Shown piece after piece: positions 4,902 to 36,613 of a DNA stretch of 64,000 bases (position 1 is its first letter; every line of letters begins with the position of its first letter). The position numbers and the translations under genes are program-made. The notes below the pieces were generated by a model. The model did not search any database. It saw nothing but the letters and a program-made list of their open reading frames with translations, and had not been told where the DNA came from. Source of the stretch: a virus; IMG/VR virus record IMGVR_UViG_3300015371_000011, positions 1 through 64,000 of that record; one strand, given 5' to 3'.

Positions 4902-5261
4902 TCATGTGGACGTGAGGGTTATTGTAAATTCTATGCGATCCGCATTCTGAAGTGCGATGGTCGAAAAATCTCCCTTAATCAGCAGCGTGCCGCTGTTGTT
5001 GTGGTACAGCCCCGCATTGGTCACGCTGTTAGGGCCGCTAGGGCCGCAGGTATTGGTCGCCACCCACTGGCGCGTATTGAATGCGGTGATGCTGTTGGCC
5101 GCTAACTGGCGCGAGCCGGCTTCAGTGAATAGCGTGGTATCGGCTTTAGCCGCGGTTCCTGCGCCGCTGCCCCAGCCTATGAAGAACGTGGTGACAGTTA
5201 TCGTCGCATTCATCAGCTGCGTGAGCCACGCGGTGCCACAATCGCAAAAGACGGTTGCCAT
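4902..5261 (-). CDS. Putative phage structural protein (fibre or appendage type)
   Basis: The 119-residue protein is preceded by a good Shine-Dalgarno sequence (AAAGGAG) before the ATG at 5261. It has no signal peptide. The sequence is a run of beta-strands ending in RIEFTITLTST, like small phage proteins annotated as tail or appendage components. Function is otherwise unknown. Confidence 0.6.
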   Translation of the reverse strand: MATVFCDCGTAWLTQLMNATITVTTFFIGWGSGAGTAAKADTTLFTEAGSRQLAANSITAFNTRQWVATNTCGPSGPNSVTNAGLYHNNSGTLLIKGDFSTIALQNADRIEFTITLTST

Positions 5262-5401: not shown

Positions 5402-8400
5402 TCATGCCACGTACGGTCCCTCAAACGGCTGAAACTTCGCCTTCAATAACTTGCTTATCAGTCTGTTCGCCTCGGCCTCATCGGTCGCCCGAAATCTCTG
5501 CGTGCCGTTTAGCTGTGCGCCTTGCGGCCGCACATCGAGCGAGCAGCACACCTCTAAGCCGATGCCCAGAAACGCCAGCGCCTCGCTATAATAGTTAAGC
5601 GCGTCCTGCGTTAAGAATGGATAATCGTCCGACATGAAAAACTTGCGAAATGTCTCTACGACTATAGTCAAGTGCTTGCGCACCTCTGGCGTCACACGTT
5701 GGCCGTTTTGCTCAAGCGCATATTTGGCCAGATGCATGTTGTCACGTATCTCATAAAGGAATATGCCGAGCGTGCGGTCGGGATATGCGAGCCTGTCGCA
5801 TTCAAGCAGCTTGAAGTTGCGCCAGAAGCGGGCACGGCGGATTGTCTCGGTTAAGTATCCGTCGTGGTGAATATGAATATCGGGTATCAGCATGCAACCG
5901 ATGCCGACGCCTTTGTTGATGCCTAGCTCAGCGTGCTCATGCACCTTGCCATAGAACGAAATGCCTGCGCGGTTTCTAAAGAGCCGCACGGGTATGTCCT
6001 CTTTCAGTATCCCCGCTGGATCGACGGCAATATGATGCTGTCTCACCGCGTAGCCGAGCATCATGTTAGGACGCAGGTACTTCCACAGATTGCGCCATTC
6101 GAGCAATTGCTCGTCGCTATCAATCCACAGAATCCAATCGGCCCAGGTATTCTCGATTGACTCATTGCGCGGCGTCTCGAATCCCGCCATGTCGCATGTA
6201 CCCGGTATAATCTGATCGGGCGAATGTTGCCCTAGATGTGCATAACAGAAAAATGGACTAGTGCCCGCGCGCACATCCTCGGTGTACTCGGCCGCCACAT
6301 CCACGGTGCGGTCAGTTGACGGCCCGTTGTCCAATACTACAATTTGGTCGGCAATCTTGTGGATGCTCCGCATGCTACGGTGCAGCACGTCCTCAACGTT
6401 ATTGGCGATATAGCAAACGGCCAACGTCTCGCGCGGCGCCTGTAAGAAAAACTTGCGCTCCCAATCAATCTGCCCTACCTGCTGCCCGTCGTTCCGATAC
6501 ATCACCATGTGCCAGCCGTAAAACGTGCGGTCCAATTCAAGCTCGCGGCAATCCGAGATAGTCGTGATTTCAAAGTCCTTGCGATGCCCCAGAATGTCGC
6601 GCAAGTCGTGCATATCGAACGCGCGCACATGCACGGGCGGAATGCCCTTCATGACAAATTCGCTGCGCTCGTTATGCCCGACAGGCACGGTTAGAATCAT
6701 CCAGCCGCCCGGCTTACAGTGGCGCTCCAGTTTGGCAATGACTTCTTCGCTGTTAGGCAAATGCTCAAGCAATTCCATGCACACTACGGCATCGAATTGC
6801 TGCACTTCACCCTTATAGTTGGCAATCGGCGCATCCTCATCGCCTACCACAAACTCCACATTCTCAGGGTGCAGAAATGCAGGCGAGCCGTCGGGCATGT
6901 GCGATGCCTTCAACTCATTGCAGCAGCGAATCAAACTGGGAGATACGTCCAAACCAACCACGGTAGCAGCAGGTAAGTGATTGGACAGAGAACGGACGTA
7001 TCCCCCATGCGCGCAGCCGAAGTCCAGTATGCTTTTAATATCTGGATGCTGGTCAATAAACTCCAGCGCCGCCTTTAGCCGTGGCTCGGTATCGGCCCAG
7101 AATGCCGTACGGTAATCAGCCGCTTCACCGCCTGAACGCTCTTCGTAGAAACGCACAATGGCCTGATGCTGCTCGTCAGCGTCCTTTATCCGCATGAACG
7201 GCATGAATCGGTCGCAGTATTTGTCCACTGCCTTATTCAGCACTGGGTCGTTATGTTTCTCGGCATACTTCTGCGCGGCCACCACGTCGCTGTTAAAGAT
7301 AAAGTGCTTCATCATGCGCTTGGTGTCGCTGGACTTCTTGCCGATAATATCGTGAAACAAATCCGTCCACTCTTCGGCCACAGGCCGCCACTGCCATTGC
7401 TCTGCACGATTGCGCGCCTGTTTGCTTAGCGCCTCCCAACGCTGATCGTTGTGCATCAAGTCAATTGTTTGGTCCACAAATGCTTTCACGAATTGCGGTG
7501 TGACAGGCTTGAAGCCAGGATCTATCGGGTCACCTACAGCGCCGAGTGATCCGTCATCGCGTATCAGTACATGAGCGCCCGCGCACGTTTCAGGGCATGC
7601 TGCCTTCCACGGCCCAATCATTACCGTGCCGCAGCCGGCCAACTCCATTGACGATATGTGCGATATTTCTTCGAAGACGCTGCTATACAGAAACAACCGC
7701 GATTGTTTGTAGTGGCGATACAAATCCTTTTTGCCTAAGTTGCCAAGATTGACAATCGTGTTGCCGTACTGTGCGGCGACAGCATTCAATTCCTCATATA
7801 GCGGTAGTGTGGTCGGGTCCGAATAACGCGACACGTAGAGGCGGGCGCGCGGCTCGCGCTTGAGGATCTCAGGCCATACCTGCGTTAAAAGTATGTCCAG
7901 CCCTCGCTCAGGCCGCGCGGTGTATAGCAGTTTAAAGCGGTCCCTCGGCTGCTCTGGCACACTGTCAATCAAGTCCAAGTCAATGCCGTTGCGCGTTAAA
8001 TGGTAAAGTGAGTCAGGGCCACCGTGTACCTGCTGGTACTGGCGCTTCATGAATTGCGACAATAAAAAGATGCGGTCGATATTCCACGCCACACCGCCAA
8101 ATTGGCTAGGGCCTGTCTTAGTGGCCAAATCGTGCTGCCAGAGAATGTTGCATTTGGACGGGTAGTCGAATTGAAACAGCATGGGCTGGCGCTGAATCAA
8201 CATAACGTCGCAAGGCGTAGCGCGCGCGTAATCAAAAAAGCCTTTAGGAAATTGTGCCTGCTGGCCTGCCGGCCCTGGCACCCAGCCCATCGGCTTGAAT
8301 ACCACGTCGTCTACTTCGTGCTCGGCTTCGGTATTACAGAATAGATTGACGTTATGGCCCAGGCGGGCCAATTCGCGGGCGGCTTGGAGTGCAGCGGTTT

Positions 8401-8491
8401 CGCTACCGCCGATTGCCTCCCCGCTGGATATAGTGCGGCCCGACATCGGCATGCCAAGGCAGCAAAGCGTAATGTCTAGGTTGTATCTCAC
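5402..8491 (-). CDS. Trifunctional fusion: GT4 glycosyltransferase - SAM methyltransferase - GT2 glycosyltransferase
   Basis: This very large enzyme (about 1029 residues) has three modules. Residues 1-400 are a GT-B/GT4 glycosyltransferase (GGSETAALQAARELARLGH near the N-terminus; donor-site FEEISHISSMELAGCGT). About 470-660 is a class I SAM methyltransferase (ILDFGCAHGG, VVCMELLEHLP). About 690-1000 is a GT-A/GT2 domain (IVVLDNGPSTDRT; DxD as WIDSDEQ; KVHEHAE). A GTG at 8491 with AGAGAGAAG upstream is preferred to the ATG at 8551, which would overlap the previous gene. It sits inside the head/fibre operon rather than the sugar module, so virion or exported-protein glycosylation is a reasonable inference; no substrate is known. 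Confidence 0.8.
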   Translation of the reverse strand: MRYNLDITLCCLGMPMSGRTISSGEAIGGSETAALQAARELARLGHNVNLFCNTEAEHEVDDVVFKPMGWVPGPAGQQAQFPKGFFDYARATPCDVMLIQRQPMLFQFDYPSKCNILWQHDLATKTGPSQFGGVAWNIDRIFLLSQFMKRQYQQVHGGPDSLYHLTRNGIDLDLIDSVPEQPRDRFKLLYTARPERGLDILLTQVWPEILKREPRARLYVSRYSDPTTLPLYEELNAVAAQYGNTIVNLGNLGKKDLYRHYKQSRLFLYSSVFEEISHISSMELAGCGTVMIGPWKAACPETCAGAHVLIRDDGSLGAVGDPIDPGFKPVTPQFVKAFVDQTIDLMHNDQRWEALSKQARNRAEQWQWRPVAEEWTDLFHDIIGKKSSDTKRMMKHFIFNSDVVAAQKYAEKHNDPVLNKAVDKYCDRFMPFMRIKDADEQHQAIVRFYEERSGGEAADYRTAFWADTEPRLKAALEFIDQHPDIKSILDFGCAHGGYVRSLSNHLPAATVVGLDVSPSLIRCCNELKASHMPDGSPAFLHPENVEFVVGDEDAPIANYKGEVQQFDAVVCMELLEHLPNSEEVIAKLERHCKPGGWMILTVPVGHNERSEFVMKGIPPVHVRAFDMHDLRDILGHRKDFEITTISDCRELELDRTFYGWHMVMYRNDGQQVGQIDWERKFFLQAPRETLAVCYIANNVEDVLHRSMRSIHKIADQIVVLDNGPSTDRTVDVAAEYTEDVRAGTSPFFCYAHLGQHSPDQIIPGTCDMAGFETPRNESIENTWADWILWIDSDEQLLEWRNLWKYLRPNMMLGYAVRQHHIAVDPAGILKEDIPVRLFRNRAGISFYGKVHEHAELGINKGVGIGCMLIPDIHIHHDGYLTETIRRARFWRNFKLLECDRLAYPDRTLGIFLYEIRDNMHLAKYALEQNGQRVTPEVRKHLTIVVETFRKFFMSDDYPFLTQDALNYYSEALAFLGIGLEVCCSLDVRPQGAQLNGTQRFRATDEAEANRLISKLLKAKFQPFEGPYVA

Positions 8492-8525: not shown

Positions 8526-8855
8526 TTAGAAACCCCGCGGCGCAGTGTCACCTATCAATACGGCCGTGGCTGCGCCTTGGCTTGAGCACGGCGTGAGTGC
8601 TACCTCCACAACCGGGCCGAATAACAATGAATCAAAATTGTTGCCGCCTGAACTGATCGCACTTGTAGACGAAACCGCATAGACACCAGACGTTGCGCCC
8701 GTGCGCACTCTTAGCGTCGCACTGCCAATGACTGAGACAAAACCTGTAAGGCGGGAATAACCTGCTACGGGAAAGACACCGAGGACTACACCATCGCTGC
8801 CCACCACCGAGACTGCGGTGTTATTGAGTAAGGTTCTACGGCGTGCGCGGGCCAC
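8526..8855 (-). CDS. Hypothetical beta-rich structural protein
   Basis: The 109-residue product starts with a basic segment (MARARRRTLL) and continues as Ser/Gly/Val-rich beta-strands, common in small phage head or appendage proteins. It and the next gene upstream share a basic N-terminus and a similar VSVIGSATLRV-type strand, which may reflect distant relationship. No function is recognised. Confidence 0.6.
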   Translation of the reverse strand: MARARRRTLLNNTAVSVVGSDGVVLGVFPVAGYSRLTGFVSVIGSATLRVRTGATSGVYAVSSTSAISSGGNNFDSLLFGPVVEVALTPCSSQGAATAVLIGDTAPRGF

Positions 8856-8864
8856 ATTGTGTCC

Positions 8865-9164
8865 TTATGGGCGCGAGACGACTACCCAGCCAACCGGCAA
8901 ATTGGCTGCTGGTGCTACCGAGCCAGCCATCGAAATGTTGAAACCGCCAGCGCGTATACTCGAAACCATTACACCCTTAACGCTATCGGTTAACGTGCTC
9001 GCATACATTTGCGGCGTTAAGATAACCACGCTGCCACTTTTAACCGATGCCGCGCCGACTGACACGGTTGTCGTGCCTGAGCCGACGGTAGCAACGCCGG
9101 CCATGCCCGCAAGGCCAACCAGGCGCCCAGCCCGTGTGCTTAGAAATCGCTCTTTTCTACGCAT
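8865..9164 (-). CDS. Hypothetical beta-rich structural protein
   Basis: The 99-residue protein begins MRRKERFLSTRAGR and is then dominated by Gly, Ser, Thr and Val strands. It lies just after the capsid gene cluster, overlapping its upstream neighbour by 8 nt, which favours a head-associated role. Nothing in it identifies a family. Confidence 0.6.
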   Translation of the reverse strand: MRRKERFLSTRAGRLVGLAGMAGVATVGSGTTTVSVGAASVKSGSVVILTPQMYASTLTDSVKGVMVSSIRAGGFNISMAGSVAPAANLPVGWVVVSRP

Positions 9165-9510
9165 CTTTTTTCTCCTGCCTTAGCGAGACAGACGGCGTTC
9201 CGCCCGCCTTGCGCACATCGCGGTCAAGCCTGCGTACCATGTCCTCTAACTCGCCTATGCGCTTGGCCTGCTCATCACATAGAAGTTTCAACTTGCCGTA
9301 GGCTTGCTTCATGTCACTGGTATTGTGGACGCCAATGACTTTAAGAAATGAATCAGGGTCGCGGAAATCAACCTGCGCCATGCAGTCATTGCCGTACTTC
9401 GACTTGGCGTACTTGCGCCCAAGGCTAGATGAGTGGCGGTCCAATAACGGCTCGCCCGGCATGACGTGAAAGCGCTCAGTCTTGATTTCTTTCGCGTAGA
9501 CCCACTTCAT
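9157..9510 (-). CDS. Hypothetical protein with C-terminal coiled coil, follows capsid gene
   Basis: The start at 9510 (MKWVYAKEIK) lies 2 nt from the capsid stop (TGATATG). The 117-residue protein has a compact N-terminal half and a heptad-like C-terminal helix (KLLCDEQAKRIGELEDMVRRL). Placement immediately downstream of the capsid suggests a head-completion or capsid-associated role, but this is positional inference only. Confidence 0.6.
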   Translation of the reverse strand: MKWVYAKEIKTERFHVMPGEPLLDRHSSSLGRKYAKSKYGNDCMAQVDFRDPDSFLKVIGVHNTSDMKQAYGKLKLLCDEQAKRIGELEDMVRRLDRDVRKAGGTPSVSLRQEKKDA

Positions 9511-9511
9511 A

Positions 9512-10510
9512 TCAAGCACAACCTACGATCAGATAACCCAAGTCAGGACCGACCGTCTTTTCGTCCTGAAACATATGGACTTCAACGGATTCGGTTTTCG
9601 GCCTGCGGTTGTCGTATCGCTCCGCGGCCAGTGCGCCAGGGAATCCTGCTGGGGTCCATCTAAAAGTGTAGCCGTGCGATGGCTCAAGCAAACCAGGTGT
9701 CGGGTTGACATACAGCATGACGCAGCTCGTGCTCCAGATGTCGGCATATGTAGCAGTGCCCGCGCCTTCAGCCGTTGTGGTCTTTTGTCCGCGCCCAACT
9801 AGGATGCGGTCAAAGCCGAATACATTGGCCACCTGCGATTCAGTCACGCCGCCGCCGCCCACGTTGTCACCCTTGCCGCGAATGAAGTCGATCACGTCAG
9901 GGTGCTTCATGAAGTTGATCCATGACGGATGCGAGAAAATCACCACATTGGGCATGTAGCCCGATGCGCGTCTGATAGCATTCACGCCTGTGTAAATATC
10001 ATCGACAGGCGTTGAGTTGTCGGCGTCACCCCATGTGGCGGATAGTGCGGTGCTCGACGTCATATTCGTGGTGGTCGTGAGCGTTACCGCTTCACGGTCT
10101 TCCCACGCTAGATTGAGTCCGCTCACTACGCGCCGGGTTGCCGATTCACGGATATTCAAGGATGCGTCGGCGTTTTCCAGGTCTTCGTAGGGTATGTCCA
10201 TTGCGAGGGCGTAATTGCGAATCGAGTATGTGTCACTCGACACATCCATTGCGATTCGGTTCGCCTCCATGCCGCGTGCACGGACAGCGTTATGCACCCT
10301 CATATTTTCCGCTTTAGACCAGACGTAGTAAACGCCCGTCTCTTTATCCACGTTTACCACTGGATAAATGAGCGGTGCGATTAGTCCTTGCGGCTCGTAG
10401 TTGATTGAGATGTTGCTCAGCGGGACGTCGATATGTAAATCACGGCCCGTAGCACCCGCATACGCTCTGGCATCGCCGCGAGATACGTTGCTTGGTAGTA
10501 TTCCGTCCAT
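9512..10510 (-). CDS. Major capsid protein (HK97-fold type)
   Basis: The 332-residue protein has the sequence style of HK97-fold capsid proteins in phages with DUF935 portals: an N-arm with SNISINYEPQGLIAPLIYPV, a central VKxxAxxxI-like helix region, an FSHPSWINFMKHPDVIDFIRG peptide-like segment and a C-terminal VGPDLGYLIVG. It follows the protease-scaffold and a DUF2190-like decoration gene, the canonical order. A strong Shine-Dalgarno (CGGAGGAA) precedes the ATG, in line with high expression. Confidence 0.85.
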   Translation of the reverse strand: MDGILPSNVSRGDARAYAGATGRDLHIDVPLSNISINYEPQGLIAPLIYPVVNVDKETGVYYVWSKAENMRVHNAVRARGMEANRIAMDVSSDTYSIRNYALAMDIPYEDLENADASLNIRESATRRVVSGLNLAWEDREAVTLTTTTNMTSSTALSATWGDADNSTPVDDIYTGVNAIRRASGYMPNVVIFSHPSWINFMKHPDVIDFIRGKGDNVGGGGVTESQVANVFGFDRILVGRGQKTTTAEGAGTATYADIWSTSCVMLYVNPTPGLLEPSHGYTFRWTPAGFPGALAAERYDNRRPKTESVEVHMFQDEKTVGPDLGYLIVGCA

Positions 10511-10539: not shown

Positions 10540-10917
10540 TTAAGCTCCGCCCGCGCGATACGGGTTAATAAACGCTTCGGCAATTAGTCCGCTATCCGCG
10601 CCCGTCACCAGATAGCCATACTTCCACTGCCCACTATTGGTCGCCGTAATGCCCCATCCGCCAGAGCCAGCCGCGATCTCGGTGCCCGCACCCAGCGATG
10701 ACGAAATGTAAAGCTTGGTGTTGCCTTGGTTGACAACAGCCGCATGCTCGGTGTGCTTGGGCTTATTCTGCAACACGCCTTCAGCCTGTCCGCCGCTGGC
10801 AGGTAGGTAAACGTGTATGCCATCGGGTGACTTCGCAACAAACTTGAACTGCAGGCCGGATAAATCGCCGCTGGCCACGCAGCTAATACCGTCTCTTGGT
10901 CCTCTGACTACAGCCAT
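10540..10917 (-). CDS. Capsid decoration protein (DUF2190-like)
   Basis: The 125-residue protein lies between protease-scaffold and capsid and has an AGGAGG Shine-Dalgarno. Its sequence resembles small capsid cement proteins of the DUF2190/gpD kind: a Gly-rich beta barrel with AHTEHAA-like turn, GWGITATNSGQWKYG and a C-terminal GLIAEAFINPYRAG. It most likely stabilises the expanded head. The family call rests on position and sequence style. Confidence 0.65.
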   Translation of the reverse strand: MAVVRGPRDGISCVASGDLSGLQFKFVAKSPDGIHVYLPASGGQAEGVLQNKPKHTEHAAVVNQGNTKLYISSSLGAGTEIAAGSGGWGITATNSGQWKYGYLVTGADSGLIAEAFINPYRAGGA

Positions 10918-10948: not shown

Positions 10949-11563
10949 TTAATTCCGTGTCGTGTTGTACTTTTGCGCCAATACGGGATTTTTGCGCTGT
11001 GTCTGCCTGAATGCATCGCTGTAAGAAATCGTCTTGCCGTTGGCGGACTGCTCTTCCTGATATTTCTTGGCAAGGCGGTCCAACTCCGCGCCTGGATCGT
11101 CCAGCGGCTCCTCGCGTGACTCTGGATCTTCGCCGCCCTTGCTGAATGTCTTGAATATCGAGTTGCGACTTTCAAATAGCGACTCGAAGATTTTAGCCGG
11201 CGAGTCCTCTGACTCACGCACCTTACCGCTGCCGCTCTCGTACACTTTCACCTTATCGGCCTCGTCGGGTATCCACTCGCGCAGCGCCCGCACGCGACCC
11301 TCTTCGGCCGGGCTGATCTTGCCCGCCTCTTTCATATTTGAAAGCCAGTTCTGGATCTGCTCGCTGCGTTTCTCCAGTGCCAGCTTTCTCACTTCGGCCC
11401 GCAAGGCTTCGGCCTCTTTTTCCTTTTCAAGCTTACCCTCTTCGCGCGCCTTGATGACGCGGTACTCGTACTCTTTCTCTTTTTCCGCCGTCATGGCGTC
11501 CACGCGTTGCTTGATAAGCTCGTCAAGCTCTTCCTGACTCACAGTGATATTCTTGTCGGCCAT
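10949..11563 (-). CDS. Scaffold protein from internal start within the protease gene
   Basis: An in-frame ATG at 11563 (MADKNITVSQEELDELIKQ) is preceded by AGGGAGG with a five-base spacer, one of the best ribosome-binding sites in the window although it lies within a coding sequence. Translation from it gives a 204-residue scaffold alone, without the protease. This mirrors the nested C/Nu3 arrangement of lambda, where free scaffold is needed in excess over protease. Confidence 0.7.
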   Translation of the reverse strand: MADKNITVSQEELDELIKQRVDAMTAEKEKEYEYRVIKAREEGKLEKEKEAEALRAEVRKLALEKRSEQIQNWLSNMKEAGKISPAEEGRVRALREWIPDEADKVKVYESGSGKVRESEDSPAKIFESLFESRNSIFKTFSKGGEDPESREEPLDDPGAELDRLAKKYQEEQSANGKTISYSDAFRQTQRKNPVLAQKYNTTRN

Positions 11564-12523
11564 ACTGCCTCCCTTGGGGCTATAAGATTTCGATTTTTGT
11601 TTATTAGCTGACTCCGCGGTAGATGACCCGTGACACTCGATCTTGAGGGCATTACAGAACGCACCTGGATCGACACCCTTGCCTTCCATGTGGCCCATGC
11701 AGCGGGTGCGAAACCCACTCGCCTCGCCAAACTTGTCGCACATGCCCTTGATGGTGTTCTCAGGCATGTTCATGGCGAAATGAAACTCGCCCGCCTTGTC
11801 GTAAAACCCGACCTTGACTTCGCTAAGGTTGGCAAACTCCATCCTTTTGGCGCACGACTCGCAAACCTCGCTCATCTCGGCGTGCGTCAGCCACAGTTCG
11901 TCTTTGGGATGATTATGAAAAACGAGACGCTTGCTCCTATCCCAACTAAACACCTCATCATCGGTGCGGGAGACAGTTGGAGGTAGAGTCGCTGGCTTCG
12001 GCTCTATCTCCAACTGGGCAAGGCGTATCTCATTGTTGTTTTCGTCGTAGCGCAAATACGCGCCGCCTTCAGATCGAGAATACAGCAATTCTATTTCTTT
12101 AAGATTGGTGAGTGCGGGAATGTCGGCGCCGAGAAAGGCAATGGACTTGAGCACGCGCGGATATTTCGTGCCGGCGTCGGCGTAGTTCCAGTATATTTCT
12201 GACGATACGCGGCTATAAGCGCCCTTCTTAATCAGGTCAGCAAATCGCCTTGGCACCTTGGTCAGATCGGCTAAGAGTTTCTTGCCGCTACGGTAAATCT
12301 TGGTGGCGTAGCCTAGTGCTGGTGCACCGAATACCTTGCGTGCCTGGTCGGCTAACTCCTGCCCGTCCGCATGGCCTGCCTTGACCGTTGGCTTGAACCC
12401 CACCTGATCAAAAGCAGACACCATAGCGTCAAGGTCGGCTTCGCTGTAAACATCATTGTTGAATGTGCCCGCAGCAAAGATTTCAAGTCCGTTGATGTCT
12501 ATGGTTGGTGTTTCTTCAGGCAT
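10949..12523 (-). CDS. Prohead protease fused to scaffold
   Basis: The 524-residue protein starts at 12523 (MPEETPTIDING), just after a terminator hairpin. Residues about 10-160 look like the Mu-I/DUF2213-type prohead protease (VKAGHADGQ, SRVSSEIYWNY, LKSIAFLGADIPA with candidate His and Ser). Residues about 215-300 are a Cys-rich insert (CESCAKRMEF, MCDKFGEASGFRTRCMG). The C-terminal 200 residues are a charged, heptad-rich scaffold (EKEKEYEYRVIKAREEGKLE). As in lambda C/Nu3, the scaffold also has its own internal start. Confidence 0.75.
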   Translation of the reverse strand: MPEETPTIDINGLEIFAAGTFNNDVYSEADLDAMVSAFDQVGFKPTVKAGHADGQELADQARKVFGAPALGYATKIYRSGKKLLADLTKVPRRFADLIKKGAYSRVSSEIYWNYADAGTKYPRVLKSIAFLGADIPALTNLKEIELLYSRSEGGAYLRYDENNNEIRLAQLEIEPKPATLPPTVSRTDDEVFSWDRSKRLVFHNHPKDELWLTHAEMSEVCESCAKRMEFANLSEVKVGFYDKAGEFHFAMNMPENTIKGMCDKFGEASGFRTRCMGHMEGKGVDPGAFCNALKIECHGSSTAESANKQKSKSYSPKGGSMADKNITVSQEELDELIKQRVDAMTAEKEKEYEYRVIKAREEGKLEKEKEAEALRAEVRKLALEKRSEQIQNWLSNMKEAGKISPAEEGRVRALREWIPDEADKVKVYESGSGKVRESEDSPAKIFESLFESRNSIFKTFSKGGEDPESREEPLDDPGAELDRLAKKYQEEQSANGKTISYSDAFRQTQRKNPVLAQKYNTTRN

Positions 12524-12528
12524 TACAT

Positions 12529-12571
12529 AAAACAAAAGGGCGACGGAGAATTAAAATCTCACATCGCCCTT
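12529..12571 (-). terminator. Rho-independent terminator upstream of the protease gene
   Basis: On the minus strand an 8-bp stem (AAGGGCGA / TCGCCCTT) with a further GAG/CTC pairing in its loop is followed by TTTTGTTTT. It sits between the methyltransferase-like gene ending at 12672 and the protease start at 12523, so it could lower read-through into the head genes. The rest of the gap (12572-12671) holds only a weak CCGC/GCGG hairpin and no gene that I can see. Confidence 0.6.
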
Positions 12572-27379: not shown

Positions 27380-28888
27380 TCATATCACGTTTGCACTAGT
27401 AATAGTATTCTCCAACAACCGCCTCTTCAAATCGTGGCCGAGCATAAAGCCAATCTCCATGATTGCCCGCGGCCCAAACTTGCCTAACACATAGGCGCGA
27501 TACGACTCGTCACTAAAATACCGCTTGAATGCATAATCCCTAAACGCCAGTACTTCTTCTGGCAGCAGGTACTTGGTCCCTAACGGCTCGTGCTCGTAAC
27601 TGTGAAACGACCAGGCCAGCCAGTCTTTCGGTGGTGTCCAGCCTTGCTTGATTTTGTCATTCCAGAGTTGGCTACCAGGGAAGGCCACGGTGCAATACAT
27701 ATTCACGTATTCTGTCTTTAATTCGAGCGCAAGCTGCAGCGTGTCATTCATGGATTCTAGTGTGTCGTTAGGCAGGCCAAACATATAATTGGCAATGATA
27801 TTTATGCCGTGCTGCTTAATGCGATTCACGGTGTCGATAATATCGTCACGACCATAGTCGCCCTTGTCTACACCGTCGCGTACCTCATCGGACACGGATT
27901 CAATTCCCAGACACAGCCACTTGAATCCGGCTTGCCGCATTTTATCCAGGAATCTGTCTTTGGTCTGATCAACACGGCCGTAACACCACAGGTTGAGCCT
28001 GTCACCGTAACGCTCTCTAATCCCGTCGCAAATGGATTCCACATGGTGCGGTTGCAGCACGAACATCTCATCATTAATTCGTATATTGGTAACGCCATAA
28101 GTCTCCACCAGTATGTCTAGCTCACGCATGACGGACGGCGCCGACCACATGCGATACATATTCACGCCGTCACGCCTAGTCGCTAGCTTGTTGCCTTCGC
28201 TAAATGGCGAATTAATCATGCAAAATGAGCACGCAAACGGGCAGCCGAGTGACGTGTAGATCGATGCGTATGGCGTGCGCTCGAAGTTATTCGTCCAGGC
28301 GTGGTGCGCGTAGGAGCGATAGCGGGCCATCGGCAGCAAATCCCAGCAATCGCCGGGCATGTCGTGGTCGAGGTCTTGGACGTTAGGAGCGTGTTGCGGT
28401 GATTCACTCGGCACCACGCCGCGCACCGTACCTGCCAAACCTTTCAGCTTGCACACCATATCAAACACGCTAATCGGCCCTTCGCCCGTACAAACATAAT
28501 CCGCACCCGTTTCACGCAAACTTTGATAAGGCAATGCCGCTGGATGACCGCCTATCAGCATTATAGGCATATCTGGCATGACAGCCTTAAGCGCTTTAAC
28601 CGTGGCCGCAGCCGCTGGCATTTTCTGCGTGCTGGCCGATGGCTGTGTACCGTGCACTATCACGCATACGAGCTTCGGTTGGAGGTGGCTTGCTAGCCTA
28701 GCCACAGTCTCGGCGTCATAGCCCATCGCCTCGGCGTCCAATATCATCACACTGATGTTTTTACGGCGCAGATATGACGCGATCAGGCGGCAGTGGATAG
28801 GCGGCTCGATGGCCGTTAAGCCTGCGCCCGTCAAGCCTTGAAAGACTTTATGCGGCTCGCCTGGATTGATGAGGATAACGTCAGCCAT
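27380..28888 (-). CDS. B12-binding radical SAM enzyme
   Basis: The 502-residue protein has an N-terminal cobalamin-binding-type Rossmann domain (VILINPGEPHK, MLIGGHPAALPY, TGEGPISVFDMV). A radical SAM core follows with CPFACSFC (Cx3Cx2C), a GIESVSDEVRDGV SAM-binding segment and ANYMFGLPNDT. Known relatives methylate or rearrange unactivated carbons in sugars, lipids or peptides. It overlaps the upstream glycosyltransferase by 8 nt, so a sugar or glycan substrate is likely. It is paralogous in architecture to the intein-bearing enzyme at 38371-41355. Confidence 0.8.
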   Translation of the reverse strand: MADVILINPGEPHKVFQGLTGAGLTAIEPPIHCRLIASYLRRKNISVMILDAEAMGYDAETVARLASHLQPKLVCVIVHGTQPSASTQKMPAAAATVKALKAVMPDMPIMLIGGHPAALPYQSLRETGADYVCTGEGPISVFDMVCKLKGLAGTVRGVVPSESPQHAPNVQDLDHDMPGDCWDLLPMARYRSYAHHAWTNNFERTPYASIYTSLGCPFACSFCMINSPFSEGNKLATRRDGVNMYRMWSAPSVMRELDILVETYGVTNIRINDEMFVLQPHHVESICDGIRERYGDRLNLWCYGRVDQTKDRFLDKMRQAGFKWLCLGIESVSDEVRDGVDKGDYGRDDIIDTVNRIKQHGINIIANYMFGLPNDTLESMNDTLQLALELKTEYVNMYCTVAFPGSQLWNDKIKQGWTPPKDWLAWSFHSYEHEPLGTKYLLPEEVLAFRDYAFKRYFSDESYRAYVLGKFGPRAIMEIGFMLGHDLKRRLLENTITSANVI

Positions 28889-29786
28889 GCCGCTCTGCCC
28901 ATTTCAGAAAATAGCCCGTCGGGTCACGAAAGAATTTCTGCACCACATTGACAAAATACTGCCGCGCATTGCGTGAATCACTAGTCGGCTCAATGTGCAA
29001 TATGCGCTCAAACTCGTTATGCATCTCCCAATCCGTCGCCCTAGTTGATACCTGATAGATAAAGTCCAACGGCTCGTCATCTTCGGCCAATATCGGCGAG
29101 TCCGCAATCACAATCGGCACACGGCCAAACGCGCACGCCTCATACAGCCGTGCCGTATGGTGGCCCGCACCACCTGGACACAGGCAAAACGCGTTATCAA
29201 GCATGCCCTGAATGTAACTTGCCGCAATCTCGTGCTGCGGCGGCACCACCGCGCCCCAGAATTGATTCGTCTTGATCTCGGCAGGCAGCCCCTTACATGC
29301 GTCAATCATACGCTGGCGCAGGCCGTTCGGCTCAGGCTGGCCATTGAAATACAGGCGCCTGAGTGGCGGCGATGTCCATTCGGGTGCGCCATCGTCTACG
29401 AGTTGCATGAGTAGTCGGCTACACGGCGGACGTGCCATAAAGCGCCAGCCTTGCTGCACTTTCCCTGCGCGGCTGTAGGCATTCATGACGATGAGCGTTG
29501 CAGGCTTCAGCCATTCGGGCCATTCAATGCACCACCAATCACCCTCTAAATCAAAAATGTGCTTGCGCTCACGACCTTTATAGTGCTCAAAACGATTCGG
29601 GTGCAGCAAGAACGCCACGTTATTGTGGTAGCGGCCGCACCAAAACCAATCCGCGGCGCCAGGGTCGGTTGTCACGGCAAAGTGCGCGTCCACGTCGGCC
29701 TGATTAGCAAATGGCCAGCGCTCGAATCCCTGCGTGGGATACTTGTCAACGAGGGCGTCAGGGTAAATGAATAGCTTAGGCTTCAA
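28881..29786 (-). CDS. Exostosin-like (GT47-type) glycosyltransferase
   Basis: The 301-residue protein ends with the segment typical of exostosin family enzymes: FCLCPGGAGHHTARLYEACA followed by FGRVPIVIADSPILAEDD, where the nucleotide-sugar donor binds. The N-terminal half carries an acceptor-type Rossmann fold (LFIYPDALVDKYP). It belongs to the sugar module, between a radical SAM enzyme and small zinc proteins. Acceptor and donor are unknown. Confidence 0.7.
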   Translation of the reverse strand: MKPKLFIYPDALVDKYPTQGFERWPFANQADVDAHFAVTTDPGAADWFWCGRYHNNVAFLLHPNRFEHYKGRERKHIFDLEGDWWCIEWPEWLKPATLIVMNAYSRAGKVQQGWRFMARPPCSRLLMQLVDDGAPEWTSPPLRRLYFNGQPEPNGLRQRMIDACKGLPAEIKTNQFWGAVVPPQHEIAASYIQGMLDNAFCLCPGGAGHHTARLYEACAFGRVPIVIADSPILAEDDEPLDFIYQVSTRATDWEMHNEFERILHIEPTSDSRNARQYFVNVVQKFFRDPTGYFLKWAERHG

Positions 29787-29974
29787 TTTTTACGTCGCCA
29801 CGTTTCTCCACACACATTACAGCGCCAGTATTCAGCGTGGTTAGGATCGCCTATGTCCTTTAACAAAGCTACCAAACAACTTGTAAATGCATCGCACTTT
29901 GGACAGAACTGCTCTTCAGGTAAACCAAATGGATTGTCACGCTCTGCCTTTAGGGCTTCACTTTTCTTTCTCAT
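29783..29974 (-). CDS. Small zinc-ribbon protein
   Basis: The 63-residue protein has CPKCDAFTSC and, 25 residues later, CNVCGETWRR, a standard four-Cys zinc ribbon with a basic end. It overlaps its zinc-binding neighbour by 17 nt. Function is unknown. Confidence 0.6.
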   Translation of the reverse strand: MRKKSEALKAERDNPFGLPEEQFCPKCDAFTSCLVALLKDIGDPNHAEYWRCNVCGETWRRKN

Positions 29975-30173
29975 ACGGCGCCAGCGCCCGCTCCGACATC
30001 ACTTCTTCTATAAACTCGCCATCACGCAGCGCTTTGATTGCGCACAGATAACAGGCATACACCATATTACGCGCATCACGGTAACGGATACGCCAGCACG
30101 CGGGTTTGGCCCCGCATATTTCACAGACAAGACGCGTGTCACCTCCACTATAAGAAAACGCTGCGGTATTCAT
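29958..30173 (-). CDS. Small zinc-binding protein
   Basis: The 71-residue protein has CEICGAKPACWR and CYLCAIKALR, giving a zinc-binding fold with a conserved RDARNMVYAC spacing. It is one of two consecutive zinc proteins inserted between glycosyltransferase genes. Function is unknown. Confidence 0.6.
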   Translation of the reverse strand: MNTAAFSYSGGDTRLVCEICGAKPACWRIRYRDARNMVYACYLCAIKALRDGEFIEEVMSERALAPYEKEK

Positions 30174-30182
30174 TCATCCCTT

Positions 30183-31055
30183 TCATTCCCATGCCCCCCA
30201 CGGCGACGGCGTGCGCACCGATTCACGCCCCTCTCGTATTGCCGCTATGCGCTCCACAAACATGCGGTGGTTATCCTCGGCGCTTCGCTGCCACGGCTTG
30301 ACAATCGAGTGCGCCAACCGCGGCAGGCCATAAACGCCAATCTTGTAGTTGCACGTCGGCAACAAGCAAAATTTCCAACCTACCATCTCCGCCCTGATAC
30401 CAATATGAATATCCTGTGACGCATAGCCGCCGTCAAATCTCTCATCCCAGCCATTGATTTCCTTCAGCACGGCTAGCGGTATCGAATCATTAAGGCTCGC
30501 ATACCATTTATCGCCCGGCATGCGAAACATTTCAGTCTCGCCTATGCGCTCGCCCTGCATGCCGCCTTTGCGCTCGCGATAAACAGGCTCGACACAATCA
30601 AAGTAATGCCGCGCACGCTCGGCGGTAAACTCATCGGTAAACGACGTCCACCAGACATCTTCAATCTCTTTCGAGTCATTCATCGCCGGCCACGGATAGC
30701 GGTCCAAATAACCGCTGGCCGAGTAACCAGACAGATTCTTGTAGATATTCCAATGATCACGCAGGTAATACGGGTAGGCCCAGATATAATCGTTGAGAAA
30801 ACAAATCAGCTCGCCCTCGGCATGGCGCAGGCCAGTATTCCAGCCTGCACAGTGGTCTATGTAATCGTGTGGCGTTGGCGGGACGTGCCTAAATGCAGGA
30901 ATGAAATAATCATCTACAAACCTTTTGCGCGCTTCATGCCATTCATCGACATAAATCACTTCGAACTGTGGCGCATCTACCTGTGCTTTCATCGAATTGA
31001 TAAGCATGTCCAAGCCGCCGAGCGAGATTGTGGTGGTGATGACAGAGATGCTCAT
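30183..31055 (-). CDS. GT-A glycosyltransferase (GT2-like)
   Basis: The start at 31055 (MSISVITTTISLGGLDMLIN) overlaps the transketolase stop by 4 nt. The 290-residue protein has a GT-A N-terminus, WNTGLRHAEGELICFLNDYI (the acidic DY replacing a usual DxD), and a late GWDERFDGGYASQDIHIGIR segment as in acceptor-side loops of galactosyltransferase-like enzymes. It probably transfers a sugar made by this module. Confidence 0.7.
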   Translation of the reverse strand: MSISVITTTISLGGLDMLINSMKAQVDAPQFEVIYVDEWHEARKRFVDDYFIPAFRHVPPTPHDYIDHCAGWNTGLRHAEGELICFLNDYIWAYPYYLRDHWNIYKNLSGYSASGYLDRYPWPAMNDSKEIEDVWWTSFTDEFTAERARHYFDCVEPVYRERKGGMQGERIGETEMFRMPGDKWYASLNDSIPLAVLKEINGWDERFDGGYASQDIHIGIRAEMVGWKFCLLPTCNYKIGVYGLPRLAHSIVKPWQRSAEDNHRMFVERIAAIREGRESVRTPSPWGAWE

Positions 31056-32023
31056 TGCCAATCTTCGCCTAGATAATCCTTGATGCGCTTCACCACGCCA
31101 TCAACGGTAAGTCCGTACTTTTTGTGCGCCTCGTCCCTACCCCACGGCTCAAAGTGATACACGTCAGGTATGCCGACGCGCAGTAACGAATTAAGGTTGT
31201 CGGCATCATGCAGGACTTCGCTCACAATCGAGCCAAGGCCACCGCTCAAGAAATGTTCTTCTAGTGTGATGATATTTTTCTGGCCTACGTGCGCTAGAAA
31301 TTCATCTTTATCAAAAGGCCATACCCGCGCCACATCGACTACGCCAAATTCTAATTTCTCCTTTAGAAAAAATTCGCTCACCTTCAATGCCGTGTGCGTC
31401 ATGATGCCTGACGAGACGATCCATGCATCACACTCGGACTTGCGCCAATTAGGATACAAAAACGTCAACGGCTTAAAGTCGTATTCGTCGGCCTTGTAGA
31501 TATTCGGTATGCCTGCCCGATCAAATCTAATATATTTCGGCGTTAGCCGCTCATAGCTGAGTTTCGCCAATGCAGCGCCACAGACTGAATCGGCTGGCGA
31601 GTATATCTCCAAGCCACAGCATGTGCGCATGATCGAAATGTCGTCCGCCGTATGATGCGACGGACCCATCTCCGCATAAGCATAGCCTGCACCCACACCA
31701 AGAATCGTAATAGGCAATTTCGAAGCACACACATCTAGCTTCACAAACTCATGGACATGACTGGTCGCAAACGGGGCGATGCAGTACGTCCATACGCGTT
31801 TGCCTTCCTGCGCTAATCCAGATGCCATACCAATCATGTTTTGCTCGGCTATGCCTACCTGAATAAACTGGCGTGGCGTCTGCTCGACAAACTGATCGAG
31901 ACTCGGTGCGCCATTGTCGGCGGTTATCAGAATGCAATTCGAGTCAGCTTTGAAAATATCGAATAGCGCATTGAAAAAGGCGTCGCGCTGGCCAATGATT
32001 CGCGGCGTTGCTTCGTAGCTCAT
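31052..32023 (-). CDS. Transketolase C-terminal subunit (pyrimidine-binding and C-domain)
   Basis: The 323-residue protein has the second half of a transketolase: the activating Glu in VGIAEQNMIGMASGLA, YCIAPFATSHVHEFVKLDVC, GPSHHTADDISIMR and a C-terminal domain (VVDVARVWPFD, FLSGGLGSIVSEVL). Split transketolases of this kind occur in sugar and secondary-metabolite clusters, where they add a two-carbon ketol unit. It overlaps the N-terminal subunit gene by 4 nt. Confidence 0.85.
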   Translation of the reverse strand: MSYEATPRIIGQRDAFFNALFDIFKADSNCILITADNGAPSLDQFVEQTPRQFIQVGIAEQNMIGMASGLAQEGKRVWTYCIAPFATSHVHEFVKLDVCASKLPITILGVGAGYAYAEMGPSHHTADDISIMRTCCGLEIYSPADSVCGAALAKLSYERLTPKYIRFDRAGIPNIYKADEYDFKPLTFLYPNWRKSECDAWIVSSGIMTHTALKVSEFFLKEKLEFGVVDVARVWPFDKDEFLAHVGQKNIITLEEHFLSGGLGSIVSEVLHDADNLNSLLRVGIPDVYHFEPWGRDEAHKKYGLTVDGVVKRIKDYLGEDWQ

Positions 32024-32886
32024 TCCATGCCCAACTCTTTCTTGCTTTGCTCTAAGTCCGCGCCTAGGGGCGCTCTATAATGCCAGAGCCGCACATCTTG
32101 CATTACGCTTGCCCCGTGGCCCTTGTCCGTATGCGCGATAACGCATAGCGGTTTGGTAATCAACGGCCAGTCACGAAAGCCTTCTAGCGACTTGAATATA
32201 TCGTTGAAGTCATGCCCGTCACATTCTCTAATCTCACACCCAAATGCCGCTAGCTTATTTGCCAACGGGTCAAGGCCAGGCCCATCGGACGCATAGAGCA
32301 ATTCATCGTGCATACCGATTGTCGCTTGCTTGTTGTTATCTACAATCAGAATCAGGTGGCCATACGCCCCTACCGCCGACGACTCGTTGTATCGTCCACC
32401 CGCCGTGAATAGCGCCTCCCAATTGCTGCCCTCGTAAAGCTCGCCGTCACCGAGCAAGCAAAATATGAAATGCTTTTTGTTGGCAAGCCGTGCGGCGTGC
32501 GCCATGCCCAGGGCTATCGGCAAGCCATGCCCTAGCGATCCTGTCAGGACTTCAATCCCAGGCACGTTGTATTCAGCATGCACGCCGAGAATGCCACCAG
32601 GGGATGCGAAGCGGTCTATCTCTTCTTCGCTGAAAAAACCCAAATCGGCTAGGATTGGATATAAGCCGAGTCCACCCTGCCCCTTTGAGAGAATGAATCT
32701 GTCACGCCCATCCCATTTCGGATTCTTCGGGTCTACGTTTAGAAGCCCACCGTAATAGAGCGCCACGGTCAACTCCATTTGCGAGAAGGCCGTGCTCACA
32801 TGGCCCGACTCTTTTCTAACCGCCATCTCCAAAACCTGGCGCCGCATCTGGAGCGCCTTGCCTGCCAGAAACTCAACATCAATCAC
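32020..32886 (-). CDS. Transketolase N-terminal subunit (TPP/Mg-binding)
   Basis: The 288-residue protein carries the thiamine diphosphate motif GDGELYEGSNWEALFTAGG ending near IVDNNKQATIG, and the phosphate-handling HVSTAFSQMELT and GSLGHGLPIALGMA segments. It pairs with the following gene to form a two-subunit enzyme equal in size to half of a full transketolase each. Substrate is unknown; a branched or chain-extended sugar is the natural inference from its neighbours. Confidence 0.85.
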   Translation of the reverse strand: MIDVEFLAGKALQMRRQVLEMAVRKESGHVSTAFSQMELTVALYYGGLLNVDPKNPKWDGRDRFILSKGQGGLGLYPILADLGFFSEEEIDRFASPGGILGVHAEYNVPGIEVLTGSLGHGLPIALGMAHAARLANKKHFIFCLLGDGELYEGSNWEALFTAGGRYNESSAVGAYGHLILIVDNNKQATIGMHDELLYASDGPGLDPLANKLAAFGCEIRECDGHDFNDIFKSLEGFRDWPLITKPLCVIAHTDKGHGASVMQDVRLWHYRAPLGADLEQSKKELGME

Positions 32887-33823
32887 GATTCACCGCCTTT
32901 AATTCATCCACCAGCCATTCAAGGCTTTCAGTCAAACCAATCTTTGCCGTCCAGCCCGTCTCGATGCAAAACTTATCGCAATCGGGCACTGCGTAGAAAA
33001 CATCCGTCGGCCGGCGCAGCGTCTCTTTCTCGTGCCACTCGGCATACACGGGCACAATGCGCCTTAGCTCGTCGGCTATGCGCTGGATGCTGCACGGCTC
33101 CTCGCTACCGATATTGTAAACGCCCGGCCCGCATTTCGTGGCCGCGAGATAGTACGCCTTCACAATATCCCTCACATCACAAAACGTACGCACGGGCGAC
33201 AAATCGCCATGCTCAATCACATCCGTGTCGCCGCGTGAGAACTGCACGAGCTGATAGGCTAGCGACGTAGCCACCAGGTCGGGACGGCGCGGATTGATAT
33301 AACCAAAGGCGCGCGTAATCACCAGCGGGAATCCTGCCATCATCGAATAGCAATTGGCGTAGTGCTCCTGACACGATTTCGTCACCGCATACGGGCTGCA
33401 CGGATTGTGCGGCTGCTCTTCACGAATCGGGTTTTCTATCTGCGGCACATTGCCGTAAATCTCGGATGATGACGCCAACACTACCTTCGGCTTTAACCCG
33501 CTTTCGGCTATGGCGTGAAAGAGGTTAAGAGTACCGCCGACATTATTGGCTAGAAACAATTCAGGCTCAGCGAAACACCGCTTCACGTTGGCAATACCCG
33601 CCAAATGAATAATCACTTCGGGATTAGCGTTTTTTAAAGCACGAGCAATCTTTTCATTATCCGTTGCTAGATTTATTGGATGTGAATAAACGTCAAGATA
33701 CTTCGCCACTTCACCAGCTACAGGCTTGCGGCCGATGCCATACACCGTCTCGCCTGCCTCTTTTAGAAACTTGGCCTGATAGTAGCCAACCGCGCCCGTG
33801 GCGCCGACGATAAGAAACCTCAC
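32879..33823 (-). CDS. NDP-sugar dehydratase/epimerase (GDP-mannose 4,6-dehydratase or RMD-like SDR)
   Basis: The 314-residue extended SDR has GATGAVGYYQAKFL (NAD-binding), VVLASSSEIYGN (catalytic Ser), SPYAVTKSCQEHY (YxxxK) and RAFGYINPRRPD. This pattern fits GDP-mannose dehydratase or GDP-6-deoxyhexulose reductase relatives. It overlaps both the split transketolase and the fucose-synthase-like gene by 4-8 nt. It probably acts on a nucleoside-diphosphate sugar in the same route. Confidence 0.75.
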   Translation of the reverse strand: MRFLIVGATGAVGYYQAKFLKEAGETVYGIGRKPVAGEVAKYLDVYSHPINLATDNEKIARALKNANPEVIIHLAGIANVKRCFAEPELFLANNVGGTLNLFHAIAESGLKPKVVLASSSEIYGNVPQIENPIREEQPHNPCSPYAVTKSCQEHYANCYSMMAGFPLVITRAFGYINPRRPDLVATSLAYQLVQFSRGDTDVIEHGDLSPVRTFCDVRDIVKAYYLAATKCGPGVYNIGSEEPCSIQRIADELRRIVPVYAEWHEKETLRRPTDVFYAVPDCDKFCIETGWTAKIGLTESLEWLVDELKAVNRD

Positions 33824-34791
33824 TTGCGCGCCACTCCCTGATTCTTTCTATACCAATCCACCGTCAACTTGAGTCCGTGATGCAGGCTGGTGCGCGCCTC
33901 GAATCCCATATCACGCTTTGCCTTGCTCACGTCGAAACACCGCCGCGCCTGCCCGTTAGGCATGGTGTGGTCCCATGTAATGCGGCCCTTAAAGCCTGTG
34001 ATTTTCGCCAGCATCTTCACCACTTCGGCTATACTGTGCTCCTTGCCGCTCGATAGATTCACAATCTGCGGCTCGTCATAGACTTCGGCAGCTTTCAATA
34101 TCCCTTCGCAGACATCAGGCGCATAAATAAAATCGCGCGTAGCCGTGCCGTGGCCCCATAGGCTTAATACATCGGCGTTATTGTCCACAGCCTCAACGAA
34201 TCGACGCACCAATGCGGGTATGACGTGGCCCTGCTCCAGGTTAAACCAGTCGTGCGGCCCTTACAGATTGCCAGGTATCACCACCACGCTAGGCAGACCG
34301 TACTGCGTATAAACGGCCTTGGCCTGCACGATTTGCATCCTTTTGGCTAACGAATACGGCGCGCTCTCTGGCTGCGGCAAGCCATTCCAGTAATCCTCTT
34401 CTTTGGTCGGTATAGGCGCATGCTCAGGATAGCCGCAGCCCGCCGATACTAGCACGGCTTTCTTGATGCCGTAGTCGTGCGCGTAATAGAGCAGGTGGGC
34501 GCTCATGGTCAGATTATCGTAAAAGAAATCCGCTGGCCGCTGCATGTTAGCGTTGATGCCGCCTACCAGGCCCGCCATGTGCACGAGCACCGTCGGCACC
34601 CGCTTAGTGTGGTGGTTGATATACAATTCTTCAACCTGATTCGCGTCTCTCAAGTCGTAAGCCTCGTGGCTAGGCCCAACGATATACGCTTTGCGGTGCA
34701 GGCAGCGCATGGTGCGCTGAAAGTTTCTTCCAAGAAACCCTGCGGACCCTGTTAATAAAGTTTGGTGCTCGTCCCAGTTAAACATGGCCAC
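33820..34791 (-). pseudogene. GDP-L-fucose synthase-like SDR broken by an in-frame TAA
   Basis: Residues 1-176 (TGSAGFLGRNF, VLVSAGCGYPE, PYSLAKRMQIVQAKA, VVVIPGNL) match GDP-fucose synthase up to the point where the family has NLYGP. Here a TAA (34261-34263) replaces the Tyr codon. The frame then continues GPHDWFNLEQGHVIPALVRR to 33820 with no other change. The total of 323 codons equals the normal family size. A point mutation, a sequencing error or translational read-through are the options; TAA is clearly a normal stop elsewhere in this genome. Confidence 0.8.
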
Positions 34792-34826
34792 CTAACCGAA
34801 ACGGCGCGCCTTCGACGCCGACGCGC

Positions 34827-35015
34827 CTAGCCTCGGTGAATTTTCTCGGCTTCCTCCTTTGTGTTTATTTTCTTCTCTGACACACCCGACATCTGAGCGC
34901 GTAGCCAATTGTCGTAGACTTCAAGCAGCATCACCTCGACGCCATTCGGCCATATCCCCTTTTGCGCACAGTGCTCCAGAAAGGCTTGCAGGCGGTCGCT
35001 AAAGCGTTGGCTCAT
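34827..35015 (-). CDS. Small hypothetical protein
   Basis: The 62-residue protein is helical and charged (QAFLEHCAQKGIWPNGVEVM, SEKKINTKEEAEKIH). It precedes the broken fucose-synthase gene with a 35-nt gap and follows the VRR-NUC nuclease gene. No family is recognised. Confidence 0.45.
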   Translation of the reverse strand: MSQRFSDRLQAFLEHCAQKGIWPNGVEVMLLEVYDNWLRAQMSGVSEKKINTKEEAEKIHRG

Positions 35016-35017
35016 GA

Positions 35018-35395
35018 TTAAAACCTCTTGCCGCCTGCAAAGTTTAAAGGGATTTTGTGCTTAACGCTTTTCCATGCAACCAAGCGGTCGGGTGCCCATG
35101 AGTACCAGATATAAACTTCAAGAATGTTATTCTGCTCAAGCAAGTCGAAAGTCCGCGCCTGATTCGGAGAAACGCTATCGTTTGGTCCTTTGACTTCAAC
35201 GCCAATCGTCTTGCCGTTAAACCGCACTAAAAAATCAGGCCAGCTAGGACGATGGACCACCGTCCAATTATGGATATGCGCACGCTTGACAAAATCTTGC
35301 TCAGCAGGCACTAGCCGTTCAGGTATAACTTTAAAATTCTTTGCCTTTTTGATTTCCTTAGCGATGAATTTTCGCAAGCTAGGACTCAGGCTCAT
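35018..35395 (-). CDS. VRR-NUC family nuclease
   Basis: The 125-residue protein shows the VRR-NUC (PD-(D/E)xK) active site: WPDFLVRFNGKTIGVEVKGP (D, ExK) followed by SPNQARTFDLLEQNN. Phage VRR-NUC proteins are thought to be structure-specific nucleases that act like Holliday-junction resolvases. A second one lies at 44117-44497. Confidence 0.75.
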   Translation of the reverse strand: MSLSPSLRKFIAKEIKKAKNFKVIPERLVPAEQDFVKRAHIHNWTVVHRPSWPDFLVRFNGKTIGVEVKGPNDSVSPNQARTFDLLEQNNILEVYIWYSWAPDRLVAWKSVKHKIPLNFAGGKRF

Positions 35396-35628
35396 TGATT
35401 CTCTCCGTTCTTAACAAGCCGCCCCATTACGCGATGAAACTCAAGACTCCACTTGCCATATTCTTTTACCCGCGAATAAACCTCGTCCGCTAGTTTCTCG
35501 GCACGCGGTATTAGGCTATTGCGCCAGTCGATATAGTCACAGTTATGGACGTGCAAATCATTGCGCAGAACGGGTTGACCGTTGCGATATTCAATCTTGC
35601 CCTCGGCACAGCTACAAAACACAGTCAT
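35392..35628 (-). CDS. Small hypothetical protein
   Basis: The 78-residue protein begins MTVFCSCAEGKIEY and includes HVHNCDYIDWRNSLIPRAEK; Cys and His residues could bind a metal. It overlaps the methyltransferase upstream by 17 nt. Function is unknown. Confidence 0.5.
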   Translation of the reverse strand: MTVFCSCAEGKIEYRNGQPVLRNDLHVHNCDYIDWRNSLIPRAEKLADEVYSRVKEYGKWSLEFHRVMGRLVKNGENQ

Positions 35629-36613
35629 TGGTAATAGCTTTCTCCGTCATCACAATCCTTGTCCCCTCTTTATGCACATCCCAGCGGTTAAACCGCATGC
35701 CATAGTGAAAATGATCGACATACGGTATCTCGTATTGCGGCGGCGACTCCACGCGTATCGACAGGCCAGCCGTGTACTGATCCTTGATCATAGCCCGTAT
35801 CCCGCTGTTGTCGCCCACGTATGGCGGGCCGTAATCGCCGTCAGCCAGAATGAATGCCATATCGCGCCTATCGGCATCGTCAAACTTGACGCTGCGCTCA
35901 TTGAGCACCTTATAGCCCGCCGCCTTTAATAGCGTGGACATCGACTCCCACGTAAAATTGCACTTATGCGCGAAATAGAAGGCGTCGCTCCAGTTTATAA
36001 TTTGAAACGCGTGCGGCACCTCTAGGTAAACAATACCCTTCGGCTTCAGTATGGACTTCAAGCCGCGCATGACGGCGAGCGGGTCGCGGCAATGCTCTAG
36101 GACGTGCGACATGACGACTAGGTTGAAATCCAGCAGCCGCTCTTCACATAACTGCTCGATAGTTGTGCCATCGCCCATCGGCTCCACGCCGCACACGTCC
36201 AGATAGCCCGCCTCCTTAAACGCGTCCACGCCCTCATAGCTAGCCGCGCCAACGTCAAGAATATGGGCATTATGCTTCACGTATGGTGCCACCATCTCGG
36301 CGCGTTTACGGTAGGCGGCAAACCTAGCCGCGCTATACGGCCGCTTATACGGCGGCTGCAATTCGGCCATGCGGGTAAACCAATCGTCGGTAGGCGATAA
36401 CGCGCGCCAGCTAAACGTGCATTGCTTGCAAATCACCGTCTGGTGCACGCATAAACGGCCGATATAGACACTTGCCGCCTCATCGAAGGCACTCACACCG
36501 CATATCGCGCACGAGCCGCGAAACACCAAATCGGCGTGCGCAATCGGATAGCGCGTTACTGGCTCGGCGGCGATGGCGGCTAAGCGGGCATCTTTGAAGT
36601 CGTGGGTTAACAT
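35612..36613 (-). CDS. SAM methyltransferase with N-terminal zinc-binding domain
   Basis: The 333-residue protein has CAICG and CKQCTFSW in its N-terminal 60 residues (zinc knuckle), then a class I methyltransferase with ILDVGAASYEGVDAF and VVMSHVLEHCRDPLAVM. This domain order is shared with C-methyltransferases of NDP-4-keto sugars. Placed in the sugar module, C- or O-methylation of a sugar is a plausible inference. Confidence 0.7.
   Translation of the reverse strand: MLTHDFKDARLAAIAAEPVTRYPIAHADLVFRGSCAICGVSAFDEAASVYIGRLCVHQTVICKQCTFSWRALSPTDDWFTRMAELQPPYKRPYSAARFAAYRKRAEMVAPYVKHNAHILDVGAASYEGVDAFKEAGYLDVCGVEPMGDGTTIEQLCEERLLDFNLVVMSHVLEHCRDPLAVMRGLKSILKPKGIVYLEVPHAFQIINWSDAFYFAHKCNFTWESMSTLLKAAGYKVLNERSVKFDDADRRDMAFILADGDYGPPYVGDNSGIRAMIKDQYTAGLSIRVESPPQYEIPYVDHFHYGMRFNRWDVHKEGTRIVMTEKAITNDCVL

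Follow-up and report, generated by a model that had tools for sequence, protein, structure and literature searches.

A glycosyltransferase-methyltransferase-glycosyltransferase fusion linked to the major capsid gene of uncultured tailed phages, and its probable action on a virion protein

A single gene for two glycosyltransferases and a methyltransferase lies between the capsid gene and the genes of exported surface proteins in an uncultured phage, and the question that it raises is what such an enzyme modifies. The window analysed here is a stretch of 64,000 nucleotides belonging to an 81,479-base virus record. A sequence-only reading had proposed one polypeptide of about 1030 residues uniting two glycosyltransferases of different folds, with a methyltransferase between them, and Pfam bears this out within one frame of 1029 residues. 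That reading gave no strand; the plus strand of 5402-8491 is full of stops. The open reading frame (ORF) begins with GTG at 8491, 5 nt downstream of the purine-rich AGAGAGAAG, and this start is supported because those of close homologues match it. The gene and its parts are as follows.

5402..8491, minus strand: GT4-methyltransferase-GT2 fusion protein, 1029 aa, GTG start, frame open to 8551; identified from Pfam, homologues and a structural model
7337..8479, minus strand: GT4 domain (GT-B), residues about 5-385; GGSE, HD, RPERG and E/D-x7-E motifs conserved
7097..7336, minus strand: helical linker, residues about 386-465; kept in much of the clade
6482..7096, minus strand: class-I SAM methyltransferase domain, residues about 466-670; D-F-G-C-x-x-G and D515 conserved
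5732..6442, minus strand: GT2 domain (GT-A), residues about 684-920; DxDE and G-x-V-H-E-H; nearest GmaR, SunS and ThuS
5405..5731, minus strand: conserved helical C-terminal extension, residues about 921-1029

The order from N to C terminus is therefore that of the name: GT4 with a GT-B fold, class-I SAM methyltransferase, and GT2 with a GT-A fold. Pfam places Glyco_transf_4/Glyco_trans_1_4 at residues 27-303 (Glyco_transf_4 at 32.7 bits against a cut-off of 28.5), Methyltransf_23/12/25/11 at 468-643 (1e-16) and Glycos_transf_2 at 695-798 (28.7 bits against 23.3). Catalytic motifs of all three domains are retained across 55 homologues. The N-terminal domain has the E-x7-E motif that goes with the GT-B fold in the GT4 class; E283 is invariant and E275 is E or D in all 55. 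The GT2 domain likewise joins its GT-A fold to the DxD motif of its class: DxDE (D791/D793/E794, at 791-794) is invariant, and G-x-V-H-E-H (848-853) is nearly so, V850 being V or I. AlphaFold2 models the whole as a single well-packed protein (pLDDT 90.7, pTM 0.91). A fold search with the entire fusion against viral structures gave only domain-level or poorly superposed matches, with a whole-query TM of at most 0.30, and a search for repeats around the gene gave only short chance matches.

Is the fusion a peculiarity of one assembly? The sequence-only reading had called for a homologue search. IMG/VR was scanned by pattern-plus-tblastn with the whole protein, with single domains, with a family alignment and with the major capsid protein (MCP) alone, and 84,980 prokaryote genomes were covered in one scan. 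Together these yielded 149 three-domain ORFs, or 111 distinct homologues at 95% clustering, from uncultured phages and from phage DNA in metagenome-assembled genomes (MAGs). Because all 111 hold the three domains in one frame, an assembly or frameshift artefact is ruled out. Their median length is 972 residues, and the order is GT4-MT-GT2 (MT, methyltransferase) in 108 and a permuted MT-GT4-GT2 in three, both orders being confirmed by Pfam in representative members. In two loci (L004 and L027) a separate GT4 gene precedes the permuted fusion gene. One homologue (L113) lies on a 982-kb Deltaproteobacteria contig and is likely prophage-borne. The whole fusion was absent from the 50,697 named phage records searched, and no paper describing it beside an MCP was found in the open-access literature. 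Reduced forms also occur: L055 has two GT4-GT2 proteins without methyltransferase downstream of its MCP, with two small ORFs between them, and in L119 the position following an MCP of unrelated type (phrog_1328) is taken by a GT4-GT2 protein without methyltransferase.

In the window the gene lies in the head module. On the minus strand the order is terminase, portal, Mu F-like protein, protease, head-fibre/scaffold-like protein, MCP, three small ORFs and the fusion; a 119-residue protein follows on the same strand, and after it come several proteins with signal-peptide-like leaders, including beta-helix/LamG proteins. The proposed location between capsid and exported surface proteins holds, with head genes on one side and leader-bearing proteins (1527-4895) on the other, as does the remoteness from the sugar genes, which lie at 27-44 kb, about 20 kb away. 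The neighbours that matter here are these.

4902..5261, minus strand: 119-aa protein immediately downstream of the fusion, with no assigned function
8526..9519, minus strand: three small ORFs (8526-8855, 8865-9164, 9157-9519) that separate the MCP from the fusion and vary from one relative to another
9512..10510, minus strand: MCP (phrog_1005, 3e-69), the conserved neighbour and most likely acceptor
10540..10917, minus strand: head scaffolding/head-fibre-like protein (phrog_673), a second candidate acceptor
10949..12535, minus strand: head maturation protease (phrog_976, 3e-33)
27380..44009, minus strand: separate nucleotide-sugar/glycan module, a possible donor supply and not a conserved partner

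Beyond the window, the record holds a tail-like module that includes a 1080-residue protein of tape-measure size, as judged from ORF sizes and sequence. By eye, signal-peptide-like leaders occur at 1527-4895 and 13628-14272 (minus strand) in beta-helix/LamG proteins and proteins of no assigned function, which is unusual for virion proteins. In the large terminase frame (22115-24586, minus strand), the terminase N and C parts are separated by an insert that resembles an intein and includes a LAGLIDADG domain (575-660); its matches to intein-splicing domains are weak. In the sugar module, a B12-binding radical SAM protein (38371-41355, minus strand) has an intein-like/HINT insert at about residues 213-614, and a third frame resembling an epimerase (34054-34758, minus strand), interrupted by a TAA, is probably a decayed or broken gene. 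A split transketolase pair, with C-part and N-part genes (31052-32886, minus strand), adjoins a GDP-mannose dehydratase-like gene, GT47 and the B12 radical SAM genes, and suggests an unusual sugar.

Linkage to the capsid gene was examined in two directions. When loci were found by the fusion alone (76, including two from the genome scan), an MCP gene lay upstream on the same strand in 59 and was adjacent but inverted in three; 14 had none, 11 of them with less than 3 kb of sequence on the upstream side. The reciprocal scan took the best 80 loci found with MCPs of fusion-bearing phages, and its result applies to this clade and not to all phrog_1005 phages: of the 53 loci whose downstream DNA reaches at least 3 kb, 48 carried the fusion. 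The other five comprised two with the permuted form farther off, L055 with its pair of GT4-GT2 proteins, and two (L062 and L084) in which the fusion was missing despite that length of DNA. Taken together, the 111 clusters include 93 in which the MCP gene precedes the fusion on the same strand, a count biased upward because loci found through the MCP are among them; in three it is adjacent and inverted, and 12 have too little upstream DNA. The gap between the two genes in the 93 has a median of 393 bases (range 62-8194). In L147, L149 and L201, where the fusion adjoins the MCP in the opposite orientation, the two must be transcribed separately, so that co-transcription is not universal.

Distances in the MCP and fusion trees are correlated (r=0.85 across 54 phages; the largest of 999 permutations gave 0.21). 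Because the two trees agree, the fusion behaves as a core gene of the head module, and placement at random as cargo, as a moron, is not supported. As in phage virion glycosylation systems, the gene is encoded with virion structural genes. Named phages with remote MCPs of the same type (RDJL Phi 1, Ottawa and CRP-6; 29% identity or less) are without the fusion. Adjacency to the MCP is an association, and does not establish the MCP as the acceptor.

Clues to the activity come from the GT2 domain and from cellular relatives. SunS and ThuS are peptide S-glycosyltransferases, and GmaR of Listeria acts on flagellin. With a family profile of the GT2 domain, these are the best solved relatives (GmaR 5e-25, SunS 8e-22, ThuS 2e-18), in a ranking biased by what has been solved because few GT2 enzymes of the subfamily are in the PDB. 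Structure search leads from GT2 to SunS/ThuS and from GT4 to MshA/PimA/WaaG-type enzymes. Among NCBIfam GT2 models, too, SunS comes closest to each of the five proteins tested, but the scores (31-41 bits among the three-domain proteins tested; 35.9 for the window protein) lie far under the curated cut-off of 350 bits for the SunS family (TIGR04195), and therefore indicate relatedness, not membership. In L128, cellular relatives of the GT4/GT2 pair have flagellin, FliS and FliD as neighbours; in Deltaproteobacteria the neighbours are Maf-like or DUF3880 glycosyltransferases. The affinity of the GT2 domain, the retention of motifs, the cellular neighbours and the L119 locus point to protein glycosylation.

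We therefore think it probable that the fusion is a soluble glycan synthase of three domains that serves a virion protein, the MCP or a head-fibre partner being the most likely one. The SunS/GmaR-like GT2 domain would probably attach a first sugar straight to the protein, with GT4 adding a second from a nucleotide sugar and the methyltransferase methylating the growing or final glycan with S-adenosylmethionine as donor. Placement in the head module would supply the enzyme when the MCP is made. The acceptor, the order of steps, the identities of the sugars and methylation as a cap are all points that we infer; the acceptor could be the head-fibre protein or some other late product in place of the MCP. 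As a general rule, dependence on the sugar module at 27-44 kb was set aside, since most relatives tested are without it: PF01370 epimerases were matched in one other phage record (G006) of 12 tested, the remaining matches being in the 3.9-Mb MAG behind L121.

Two glycosyltransferase domains and a SAM methyltransferase in one polypeptide are the mark of trifunctional synthases of the A064R/WsaE type. Chlorovirus PBCV-1 A064R (638 aa, GT-GT-MT) constructs the end of the glycan carried by the major capsid protein and O-methylates it (PMC9614988), and it too is a viral three-domain fusion. It belongs, however, to a eukaryotic algal virus, and its methyltransferase is C-terminal; a domain with a GT-A fold comes first and is followed by one from a new GT family, and the enzyme sets terminal sugars onto an existing N-glycan. 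We liken the two as possible functional analogues and claim no homology. Geobacillus WsaE (MT-GT-GT) is trifunctional, and helps to build and 2-O-methyl-cap an S-layer protein glycan (PMC2943079). It shares the methyltransferase and two GT domains, and the permuted phage form MT-GT4-GT2 is also methyltransferase-first; its own setting is a bacterial S-layer locus, with a lipid-linked glycan, ABC export and an oligosaccharyltransferase. Corndog gp35-gp38 comprise an O-methyltransferase, two glycosyltransferases and a GlcNAc transferase, for which addition of methyl groups and glycans to the capsid has been proposed (PMC4351075). There, as here, a methyltransferase and GTs lie within the head gene block, but in those cultured mycobacteriophages each is its own gene, set between portal and protease, whereas the fusion is one protein after the MCP in an uncultured clade. 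It is best read as a fused counterpart of the separate Corndog genes. SunS, ThuS and GmaR, to which the GT2 domain comes closest by profile among solved enzymes (for SunS and ThuS also by fold), are without a GT4 or methyltransferase domain. The fusion would work like A064R, WsaE and the Corndog genes, but differs from them in its combination of folds, fusion, MCP linkage and host range.

The enzyme could instead act on the host surface, modifying LPS, O-antigen or capsule during infection or lysogeny, with serotype conversion or a block to superinfection as the outcome. The GT4 fold matches include WaaG and other polysaccharide GTs, methyltransferase-bearing enzymes such as WsaE and WbdD can build or cap exported glycans, and the likely prophage at L113 would suit such a role. 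The gene sits, however, in the head module and not in a gtr-type cassette, and fusion loci are not found with LPS, gtr or polysaccharide export genes, as an LPS/O-antigen cassette would be; the tight coevolution with the MCP is unexpected of a host-surface modifier, and the nearest GT2 relatives act on proteins or peptides. The sequence-only reading had named homologues confined to LPS operons as evidence against itself. They are found beside the MCP gene, and the genome loci examined include none in an LPS operon, so that an origin from such an operon is rejected. We regard a host-surface role as unlikely.

A slightly lower probability attaches to another virion component as substrate (tail tube, fibres or the nearby leader-bearing secreted proteins), MCP adjacency then reflecting operon position only. 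Beta-helix/LamG proteins do lie downstream of the fusion in the window, and tail-tube glycosylation is reported in mycobacteriophages, in work cited in PMC12619734, but the adjacency to the MCP persists across very divergent phages and two MCP types while other neighbours vary. For the secreted proteins in particular, which the sequence-only reading had named as possible substrates, nothing specific speaks in favour of modification. Glycosylation and methylation of phage DNA to give hypermodified bases is very improbable. Phage GTs do serve DNA hypermodification, according to work cited in the same paper (PMC12619734), and DNA methyltransferases are encoded in the window; the fusion, however, is linked to the MCP and not to replication genes, and its GT2 is related to peptide GTs. 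A thymidylate synthase/hydroxymethylase homologue (PF00303) was absent from the window's record and from 11 of 12 other phage records, with one match in G009, and this absence from 12 of 13 records also disfavours DNA as the substrate.

Finally, we return to modification of a virion protein as the preferred reading. To our knowledge, a few mycobacteriophages supply most of what is known of glycosylation on phage virions. We suggest tentatively, and with slightly less than even confidence, that glycosylation of the capsid is ancestral and near-obligatory in a large clade of uncultured tailed phages, where one MCP-linked enzyme starts, extends and methylates a glycan directly on the MCP, as an independently arisen bacteriophage counterpart of the chlorovirus capsid-glycan enzymes. 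The fusion offers a defined enzyme for testing and a means of spotting glycosylated phages in metagenomes; it allows comparison with the capsid glycans of eukaryotic viruses, and could serve as a compact tool for building methylated glycans onto proteins. It is a conserved marker gene by the MCP, shared by about a hundred lineages across many metagenomes, and it predicts virion glycosylation across the uncultured clade; its place beside the capsid gene in so many lineages suggests phages that cover their own capsids in a methylated sugar chain.
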